Origin: Tepidiforma flava
GTDB taxonomy: Bacteria; Chloroflexota; Dehalococcoidia; Tepidiformales; Tepidiformaceae
Direction: 5' to 3'
DNA: 64,000 bases
Assembly: GCF_027594505.1 (NCBI RefSeq)
Contig: NZ_CP115149.1
Span: forward strand, 62,001-126,000
The notes beneath the pieces were generated by a model. It was given only the letters and a program-made list of their open reading frames with translations, searched no databases and was not told the origin of the DNA. The position numbers were made by a program, and so were the translations under genes. Positions 50,857 through 52,242 of this stretch are shown here, in pieces (position 1 is the stretch's first letter; each line of letters begins with the position of its first letter).

Positions 50857-50947
50857 CCAATCGTTCCCTGGCTGTGGCACCTTCCGGGGTTTCCCCGGGG
50901 TTGCCGGGCGGTCGTCGGGCCAGGTCCCTCGCGCCACTCGTGATTGG
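50857..50947 (-). promoter_or_regulatory. SAM-I (S-box) riboswitch
   Basis: 91-nt aptamer read on the minus strand. P1 pairs CCAATC (50947-50942) with GATTGG (50862-50857). Core blocks match the S-box consensus: ATCACGAGTGG, GAGGGACCTGGCCCGACGA (kink-turn region), GCCCGGCAACC, P3 hairpin CCGGGG-AAA-CCCCGG and AAGGTGCCA. The P2 loop CCTGGC is perfectly complementary to GCCAGG (50872-50867), the expected pseudoknot. P4 is very short. The P1 3' strand is fused to the ribosome site (GATTGGAGGTG), so SAM binding should shut translation of the 83-residue gene. Confidence 0.85.
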
Positions 50948-51028
50948 GGATGGGGTTGCGGCGGATGCCGCCGGGTGTTGCGCCGGGGGCGCGAATCGGG
51001 CGGTGCGGCTCTCCTTTCCGGGGCAGCG

Positions 51029-51052
51029 AAAAGCCCCTCACGGGGAGGGGCT
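51029..51052 (-). terminator. Terminator-like hairpin between the two aptamers
   Basis: On the minus strand AGCCCCTC-CCCGT-GAGGGGCT followed by TTTT. It lies between the upstream SAM-IV-like aptamer and the downstream S-box. Just upstream of it, two further hairpins, 51071-51091 (7 bp) and 51089-51109 (9 bp), overlap by 3 nt and so compete, which suits an attenuator. Confidence 0.55.
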
Positions 51053-51134
51053 GGCGTTCGGATTGCCGGTGCCCCTCCGGGTTCGAGGGGCGGGTATGCG
51101 ATACCCGCCGTTGGTTGCCCCGTCATGCGGGGCC

Positions 51135-51200
51135 GCGTCATGGTGGCACCTTGGCGGCGTTACCAGGTTGCCGGGCAGCTCGCGCTGCCGCTCGGGACGC
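51135..51200 (-). promoter_or_regulatory. SAM-I/IV-like riboswitch aptamer
   Basis: 66 nt on the minus strand. P1 GCGTC (51200-51196) with GACGC (51139-51135); P2 GGCAGC-GCGA-GCTGCC; then CGGCAACC, P3 closed by ACCTGG and CCAAGGT, and GGTGCC. The order GAGCG-P2-CGGCAACC-P3-GGTGCC-ATGAC follows the SAM-IV/SAM-I-IV pattern, without the kink-turn and P2 pseudoknot of S-boxes. It is shorter than listed SAM-IV examples, so it could be a minimal or degenerate member. The predicted transcription start is about 3 nt before P1. Confidence 0.65.
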
Positions 51201-51209
51201 TTCGGGGAA

Positions 51210-51237
51210 AGGATAAGGAGGTCGGGCGGGCTGTCAA
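51210..51237 (-). promoter_or_regulatory. Promoter of the tandem-aptamer leader
   Basis: Minus strand: TTGACA (51237-51232), 16-nt spacer, TATCCT (51215-51210). It is the best-matching -35 in the region and places the RNA start near 51203, just ahead of the first aptamer. Confidence 0.75.
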
Positions 51238-51250
51238 GCGATCGCGGGCG

Positions 51251-51899
51251 TCACGTGAGCTCCGCCACGATGTGGAGGAGCTCGCGGGCTGCGAAGTCGA
51301 AGAATTGAGCCAGCTCCGAGTACGCTTTCTTGGCGTCCTGGCAGAAAAACGCTGTAAAGCCGCCCTCAGCGATACGTACGCCCGGGGATCCGGATAATGA
51401 ACTTCATAGACTTCCAGTTCCGACCTGGCGTAGACGGCGGACGCAATATCCTGCGTGACAACTTTCGTCCATGGATATTCAAGGTCGAATCCAGAGTCGA
51501 AGATCTCCCTCATATCCTGTATACTAACTGCCGCCTCGATCGGGACTATAACCGAATTATACCATGAGTAAATGACAAGCTTCGTCGTCTCTTCGTCGAT
51601 CACCTGGAAAAACCCAGGTCTCGAACCGTGTCCGAACACTCCTGGACAGCATATTTTAGCGCCGAAGCGCAAATCACCTCATCCCAGTAGAATTCCTCAA
51701 TCCAGTGCCCACAATTCGACCAGATATCGAAACATATCGGACACACCTGAACGCAAACGTCGCAAAGGAGCGTGTACCTGTTGCGCTCTTTATCGAAGTA
51801 CGGCCGCGACTTTTCTGCGCCACCAGGACAGTTGATGTGCAGCCGTGACCAATTTTCGACGGCGTGGTCGATGATATCTTCTTCGCGAATCAACACCAT
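51251..51899 (-). CDS. Low-GC cysteine-rich hypothetical protein (frameshifted)
   Basis: 216 residues after repairs near 51615 and 51385. Not recognised. N-terminal third has INCPGG and CDVCVQVCPICFD then SNCGHW, five to six Cys and a His that could form a zinc or iron-sulfur site. The rest is soluble with acidic and aromatic residues (FQVIDEETTKLVIYSWYNS). It ends FDFAARELLHIVAELT. Base composition is near 50% GC against about 70% around it, and codon use is quite different, so it was probably acquired. It lies between tRNA-Phe and tRNA-Asn. No integrase or repeat borders are seen. Confidence 0.6.
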
Positions 51900-52118
51900 G
51901 AGACCATCACCTGAATCGATGAGCGCTCGTTCAGCCGCTCAATTCTCAGCGTTTTCCGCACTCTGGGACGACCATTGGCGTGCAGGCAGTATACCGGCAG
52001 AGTTCGCGCGGGTCACGGCTCGGCGTGGGAACGCGGAGGCTGGCGAGCATGCGAGGGGTGAACCCGGCGAGCGCTGATCTCGCGAGGAGCAACGAAGGCG
52101 ACGATAGCGGACAAGCAC

Positions 52119-52146
52119 AACGGCGCGCCGACCCGGGCGCGCCGTT
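52119..52146. terminator. Strong hairpin downstream of tRNA-Asn
   Basis: Perfect 11-bp stem AACGGCGCGCC / GGCGCGCCGTT with a GACCCG loop, 22 nt from the tRNA-Asn 3' end (minus strand). Likely its terminator. The rest of 51900-52118 contains no gene I can support. Confidence 0.65.
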
Positions 52147-52167
52147 TCGTTGCCTGCCGTCAGAAAG

Positions 52168-52242
52168 TGGCTCCCCGGCGAGGATTCGAACCTCGAACCT
52201 AGCGGTTAACAGCCGCGCGCTCTACCGTTGAGCTACCGGGGA
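52168..52242 (-). tRNA. tRNA-Asn (GTT anticodon)
   Basis: Read on the minus strand: acceptor TCCCCGG/CCGGGGA with discriminator G and encoded CCA, D arm GCTC...GAGC, anticodon loop CTGTTAA, T arm CGAGG-TTCGAAT-CCTCG. All stems pair. Confidence 0.95.

Follow-up and report, generated by a model that had tools for sequence, protein, structure and literature searches.

The gene for an 83-residue protein of Tepidiforma is preceded by a leader with a tandem of SAM aptamers that belong to different classes, and we consider it likely that they form a two-level OFF switch for the same ligand, SAM, acting first by termination and then by occlusion of the ribosome site. The window, that is, the whole 64-kb stretch of DNA analyzed here, was searched with the Rfam models (cmscan, gathering thresholds), and five matches were obtained, three of which were tRNAs and two SAM aptamers on the minus strand. 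Aptamer 1 belongs to SAM-I/IV (RF01725; 51205-51101, 54.3 bits against a cut-off of 41.1, E = 3.8e-6), while aptamer 2 is a SAM-I aptamer, or S-box (RF00162; 50949-50855, 59.0 bits against a cut-off of 44.4, E = 4.3e-11). A chance match was rejected, as both scores lie above the gathering threshold. Two aptamers of differing class on one strand had been proposed in a preliminary description of this DNA, made from its letters alone; the Infernal search suggested there as a check thus bore out the tandem and the class difference, and the coordinates given proved correct.

Along the minus strand, the locus comprises a promoter-like site, the SAM-I/IV aptamer, hairpins A, B and C with a TTTT run, a 79-nt spacer, the S-box, a Shine-Dalgarno sequence and the 83-aa gene (50847-50596), whose predicted length was likewise right. 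Both aptamers, their order, the promoter-like site, the hairpins and the overlap with the Shine-Dalgarno sequence are observed features, and the tandem is found in four other genomes. The promoter-like site, sigma-70-type TTGACA-N16-TATCCT (51237-51210, minus strand), lies just upstream of aptamer 1, where a promoter had been noticed; it scores 10 of 12 in a consensus scan that found on average 0.0 such sites in 50 shuffles, and a TTGACA box was seen by eye at the matching place in two other Tepidiforma genomes (G002 and G005). A separate promoter for the S-box was considered and rejected, since the scan, which covers the sigma-70 consensus and no other promoter type, found none between the aptamers. 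Further upstream, tRNA-Asn and the promoter are separated in the window by additional DNA (51300-52170) that is absent in G002; it includes a 99-aa cysteine-containing ORF (51600-51899, minus strand) for which Pfam gave only ferredoxin-like lines far below the cut-off.

Aptamer 1 is closed by P1 (51200-51196/51139-51135, minus strand), and its P2 is a plain hairpin, GGCAGC-GCGA-GCTGCC. SAM-I/IV aptamers are described as having a P2 without an internal loop (PMC2864571) and as having no PK-1 (PMC6890682), and aptamer 1 shows both features in addition to its score and to a PK-2 between the P3 loop and the 3' flank (CGCCG/CGGCG, 51159-51155 with 51110-51106, minus strand). Of the 30 SAM-I/IV matches listed for the family, five belong to tandems and 24 precede metK, while one (L006), a hybrid with a higher score as SAM-I, was excluded from all leader counts. 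All 24 other loci with the core precede metK, as judged from EGHPDK being encoded within 420 nt, and sequence comparison identifies aptamer 1 as a paralogue of these metK leaders. PK-2 reads GCCT/AGGC in 25 of the 29 leaders and GCCG/CGGC in 4, the latter all being Tepidiforma tandems; this two-sided change relative to the metK copies probably represents one compensatory event. Position 10 of J1/2 is C in aptamer 1 of G000 (the genome of the window), G002 and G001 vs A in 24/24 metK leaders (22 by script, 2 by eye). The aptamer, PK-2 and hairpin A are thus common to the Tepidiformaceae metK leaders and the tandem leader, whereas the former carry a single aptamer and the latter the altered PK-2 pair in four of five copies. 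The hairpins that follow are also like those of the metK leaders, 14 of which (n = 24, by eye) carry both B and C, while seven, including L064 and L065, show a simple form, in which hairpin A is opposed by a single hairpin carrying a T-run, and three are ambiguous.

Hairpin A (GGCGGGTAT/ATACCCGCC; 51109-51089, minus strand) is the proposed antiterminator. It overlaps the 3' strand of PK-2, and since both use one and the same GGCG, they are mutually exclusive. A stem of 6-12 bp is present in 28/29 SAM-I/IV leaders, L053 being the sole exception. Positions 5-9 of this stem show two-sided changes; one leader is mismatched at position 7, 7/27 at position 8 and 11/23 at position 9. Hairpin B (GCCCCTC/GAGGGGC; 51091-51071) has 3 nt in common with hairpin A, and hairpin C (AGCCCCTC/GAGGGGCT followed by TTTT; 51052-51029, both minus strand) is terminator-like. 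Given the shared GGCG and the 3-nt overlap with the next stem, we infer that SAM would favor PK-2, PK-2 would preclude hairpin A, and the terminator would form. The terminator-like hairpin noted in the preliminary description is indeed present in the sequence, and by eye a similar hairpin occupies the same place in the four other tandem loci, being weakest in G001; a simple terminator scanner, the rule of which is five T where the run here is four, did not list it, and hairpin C therefore stands on the by-eye comparison.

Constrained folding was performed for 14 leaders (five tandem, nine metK), with and without PK-2 locked. In the tandem loci in which the local C hairpin can be seen, locking PK-2 lowered its probability from 0.72 to 0.07 in G002 and from 0.89 to 0.55 in G027 (a genome of another genus), and changed it from 0.13 to <0.05 in G000 and from 0.14 to 0.12 in G005, because the 3' arm of C then pairs with the 5' arm of B. 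With PK-2 locked, pairing of the terminator 3' arm, now with that partner, is usually more extensive. The long B-C stem formed in this way likewise reaches the T-run and may be the real terminator. As a whole, the folding gave a mixed picture without clean support for the terminator relay, and it lowers our confidence in the two-level OFF reading.

Aptamer 2 carries P1 (50947-50942/50862-50857), a P2 split into P2a and P2b with a kink-turn sequence, P3 and PK-1 (CCTGG/CCAGG, 50924-50920 with 50871-50867, all minus strand). The S-box pseudoknot recognized in the preliminary description is therefore present, but the aptamer is not the full S-box described there, as P4 is absent: 4 nt separate CCAGG from P1 in the window, and 3-4 nt in 5/5 tandem copies. 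By comparison, a P4-like hairpin was found in 32/32 other S-boxes of the family (26 by script, six by eye); these 32 come from 40 other listed SAM-I matches, eight without a locus having been left out. The same S-boxes all have A at J1/2 position 10, where aptamer 2 has C in 4/5 tandem copies and G in G001. The P1 3' strand ends in GATTGG and shares its GG with the Shine-Dalgarno sequence GGAGG (50858-50854, minus strand), the first two bases of which lie within P1; the ATG follows 6 nt after it. The aptamer thus does merge with the ribosome site, as had been noticed. Covariation, the other check suggested, gave no support: no pair covaries among the five aptamer 2 orthologues, which are too alike in sequence, although 95% of PK-1 cells are paired across them. 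P1 and PK-1 consequently rest on the Rfam model. In G001, pairs of P2b and P3 are broken, as is the gene behind them.

The lack of P4 raised the question of SAM-IV, which is defined by having no P4 but P5 and PK-2 (PMC6890682). This assignment was rejected by eye: P4 is absent in both, but aptamer 2 has a short P3 loop without a 3' partner, the ATG follows directly, and there is no room for P5 and PK-2. Judged from its sequence, aptamer 2 is a minimal member of the SAM-I clan that lacks P4, P5 and PK-2. S-boxes lacking P4 also occur elsewhere in the class (L088, L089, L092); by eye they seem to have P5 and PK-2 and to be SAM-IV-like, and the one in L088 (1500-3097, G217) is an S-box-like leader located about 0.5 kb upstream of an ORF that by eye resembles a DNA methyltransferase. 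SAM-I/SAM-IV-like leaders were seen by eye in other families at L089, L090, L092 and L097, in the last three cases before metK; all four have a GATAGC motif downstream, a possible pairing partner of the P1 5' strand.

The 83-aa gene was found in 5/61 genomes (its own included) and, with a four-row profile, in 5/393 genomes of the class. The carriers are G000, G001, G002 and G005, all Tepidiforma, and G027, and in 5/5 of them an S-box match lies directly upstream of the gene and a SAM-I/IV match further upstream, the S-box of G001 (29 bits) being below the cut-off and its small gene frameshifted. No further SAM-I/IV aptamer followed by a separate SAM-I aptamer was seen among the 30 SAM-I/IV and 45 SAM-I matches listed for 38 family genomes. 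In the class as a whole (393 genomes), SAM-I/IV occurs in 32 genomes (37 matches) and SAM-I in 153; only the best SAM-I matches were compared there, so the statement on pairs applies to the family.

A counterpart of the protein with 93% identity is encoded in a Tepidiforma sp. The dN/dS ratio of the small gene is 0.16 between G000 and G002, based on 17 differences (11 synonymous and 6 other changes), and 0.65 between G000 and G005. The protein belongs to no NCBIfam or PADLOC family; Pfam returned one line (E = 0.28) and PHROG one line without an assigned function (E = 0.0032). Its best structural model, built from two sequences, reached a pLDDT of 69.9 and a pTM of 0.55, three of the five models being below 45, and a Foldseek search with this low-confidence model gave a best E of 0.25 with several OB-fold chains in the top rows, which is a hint of an OB-like fold. 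No relatives of the gene were found in viral contigs or phage records, and a plasmid match of the G027 small protein (32%, E = 0.6) was disregarded.

In two relatives, the 83-aa gene opens a longer row of genes. In G005, the whole row lies between tRNA-Asn and tRNA-Phe and consists of the leader, the small gene, a MoxR AAA protein (491 aa, PF07728, 4.9e-11), a VWA/DUF2201 protein (473 aa, PF13203, 1.2e-5) and a MetK-like protein of 378 aa. The latter keeps GHPDK and GGGALSGKD and matches TIGR01034 with 147.3 bits (E = 5.6e-43) vs the 309.4 required; it is therefore a divergent homologue below the NCBIfam cut-off. In G027, the order is SAM-I/IV, a 118-aa ORF, S-box, small gene, MoxR, VWA and MetK-like, the latter gene having been found by tblastn; identities with G005 are 59, 50 and 64% for MoxR, VWA and MetK-like, respectively. 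Both rows are presumed to be operons from their spacing, and in both the SAM-synthetase-like gene stands last. Genes for a phage portal protein and a prohead protease, the latter apparently truncated, lie upstream of the G027 row. Between the same tRNAs, G000 and G002 have the switches followed by the small gene alone, and a tblastn search (E up to 0.01) of the window and of the stretches fetched from G001 and G002 found no piece of a MoxR, VWA or MetK-like gene. The interval flanked by these tRNA genes measures 219 bp in G003 and 210 bp in G004 and does not contain the tandem. As the probable history of the locus, we propose that the leader belonged to a row of the small, MoxR, VWA/DUF2201 and MetK-like genes, which is still complete in G005 and G027, was reduced to the small gene in G000 and G002, and is missing at this position in G003 and G004.

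The viral contig IMGVR_UViG_3300033064_006711 encodes a MoxR and VWA pair 45% identical to that of G005, downstream of a SAM-I/IV aptamer (74.3 bits). In this contig (L131:366-4316), the aptamer is followed by two small ORFs, MoxR and VWA, the VWA frame ending early compared with G005. Each of the three MoxR-VWA pairs of this kind that were found sits downstream of a SAM riboswitch. Since the riboswitch locus itself had led to two of them, the viral pair alone counts as independent evidence. Searches of phage and plasmid records for VWA and MoxR gave nothing, and no MetK-like gene was found in viral contigs; in phage and plasmid records the best MetK-like matches listed were about 27-33% identical, many of the annotated ones being MetK or SAM synthetase. 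A VWA profile run on 265 genomes gave 0 matches, which proves little, as the expected positives G005 and G027 gave none either, being outside the sample drawn or missed. At two other loci, L075:4008-4143 (G000:C1:2049007-2049142) and L077:2581-2692 (G018:C1:284580-284691), SAM aptamers that by eye have P4, PK-1 and a PK-2-like pairing of the P3 loop with the 3' side precede another MoxR AAA and DUF2201/VWA protein near CRISPR-like repeats; they score as SAM-I (55.4 and 57.3 bits, respectively), the G000 copy also matching SAM-I/IV weakly (35.1 bits, below the cut-off).

In the two-level OFF reading, RNA polymerase would transcribe the SAM-I/IV aptamer first. At high SAM, its P3 loop would pair with CGGCG to form PK-2, thereby taking bases from hairpin A; the terminator 5' arm would then be left free, and transcription would stop near 51029. 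At low SAM, hairpin A would form and invade the terminator 5' arm, so that transcription would continue. On messages that escape, the P4-less S-box would bind SAM, close P1 and bury the start of the Shine-Dalgarno sequence, turning off translation of the 83-aa gene, which would hence be made only at low SAM and with a response steeper and tighter than that of one switch. We infer here the ligand, the direction of the response and both expression platforms of the tandem. SAM is taken as the natural ligand because a SAM-synthetase-like gene is present in both full rows. The suggestion that termination precedes a translation block on one message had already been made in the preliminary description; the architecture of the five loci, the metK-like hairpins and the position of the S-box in G027 speak for it, while the mixed folding of the terminator relay speaks against. 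In G027, the S-box match begins 13 nt after the stop codon of the 118-aa ORF, so this aptamer most likely acts on translation inside a polycistronic message.

The same ORF, which has its own Shine-Dalgarno sequence, could also mean that the two switches arose for two cistrons; the first cistron would have been lost in the window, and the tandem would be a by-product rather than a design for a steeper response. This is a real possibility, although not the one we favor. It is supported by a Shine-Dalgarno-like AAAGGAG that was found by eye after the terminator in all four Tepidiforma loci (51017-51011 in the window) with no start codon close behind, perhaps that of the lost cistron. On the other hand, the MoxR, VWA and MetK-like frames of G005 are open, yet its aptamers are still adjacent; G027 may instead have gained its ORF, and in both scenarios the 83-aa gene would be under the serial control of the two switches. 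It is unlikely that the window locus is a decaying fossil, in which leader and gene are chance survivors of a row whose other members have disappeared, but several observations fit this idea: no trace of the downstream genes in the window and in the G001 and G002 stretches, the frameshifted gene and broken S-box of G001, the short tRNA intervals of G003 and G004 and the dN/dS of 0.65 vs G005. Against it, G000 and G002 each have an intact frame, Shine-Dalgarno sequence and pair of aptamers, and the lower ratio between these two genomes, though based on few differences, also speaks against decay. That one or both aptamers sense a ligand other than SAM, be it a SAM-related compound or the result of an altered specificity, appears quite improbable. 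The residues that we take to contact SAM directly (G11, C44, A45, A46, C47, U57, G58, A87 and U88) are kept, C10 faces G64 in a by-eye alignment so that a pair is still possible, and the SAM-synthetase-like gene in the full row also speaks for SAM. The unusual base at J1/2 position 10 of aptamer 2, accompanied by C in aptamer 1 of three loci, is what favors such a change, and SAM-I variants that bind spermidine do exist (PMC10853860).

In addition to the two-level OFF reading, we tentatively consider, as a rather doubtful extension, that the switches are part of a mobile SAM-guarded module made of an OB-like small protein, a MoxR AAA protein, a VWA/DUF2201 protein and a divergent SAM synthetase. 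Such a module would be silent under two serial SAM sensors, the second being the minimal aptamer without P4, P5 or PK-2, and be released only when SAM collapses, either to remake SAM or as an alarm for SAM depletion; a phage SAM lyase or heavy methylation may, for example, cause such a collapse. This idea is prompted by the following observations: (i) the tRNA-gene flanks in Tepidiforma, (ii) the phage genes in G027 and (iii) the MoxR-VWA pair of the viral contig.

Bi-mechanism tandems are a known kind of riboswitch. The tables of a 2022 survey (PMC9481103) give 164 double SAM-I tandems and, as mixed pairs for the same ligand, SAM-II/SAM-V (149), SAM-II/SAM-I/IV (7) and SAM-I/IV/SAM-II (2), whereas a pair of SAM-I/IV and SAM-I is not in the tables examined. 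The claim that mixed-class SAM tandems are known mainly as SAM-II/SAM-V thus needs to be amended, since SAM-II with SAM-I/IV has been published in both orders (PMC9481103). The bi-mechanism tandem described there resembles the present one in that a single leader combines SAM aptamers from two classes and, as far as the proposed mechanism goes, in placing a terminator before ribosome-site control; here, by contrast, SAM-I/IV is followed by a P4-less SAM-I aptamer, both of Rfam clan CL00012, the phylum is another one (Tepidiforma belongs to Chloroflexota), and the leading gene is uncharacterized. The pairs of SAM-II and SAM-I/IV have the SAM-I/IV half in common with our tandem, but their other half is SAM-II, not SAM-I; the SAM-II/SAM-I/IV tandem might, according to the survey, be only pseudo-cooperative (PMC9481103). 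The adjacent MoxR and VWA genes of G005 and G027, absent from the window, recall the MoxR-vWA ternary conflict systems, which combine MoxR and vWA with VMAP, iSTAND or FtsH as a third component (PMC7159879). Instead of these, the rows described here contain the small protein and the MetK-like protein, and no VMAP, iSTAND or FtsH component was recognized among the proteins scanned. A text search count in that paper (PMC7159879) gave no mention of riboswitches. Our literature search for a SAM-I/IV and SAM-I tandem, a Tepidiforma riboswitch or a MetK/MoxR/VWA row, which covered neither bioRxiv nor most subscription papers, found no published description of the tandem or of the gene row downstream of it.

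The tandem would add a new pair of classes to the short list of two-level riboswitches for the same ligand. Since both halves belong to one Rfam clan, the effects of P4, PK-1 and PK-2 on one binding core could be compared within a single RNA. Furthermore, the locus ties SAM riboswitches to a row of MoxR, VWA and MetK-like genes on apparently mobile DNA, and this row would be expected to be on when SAM is low.
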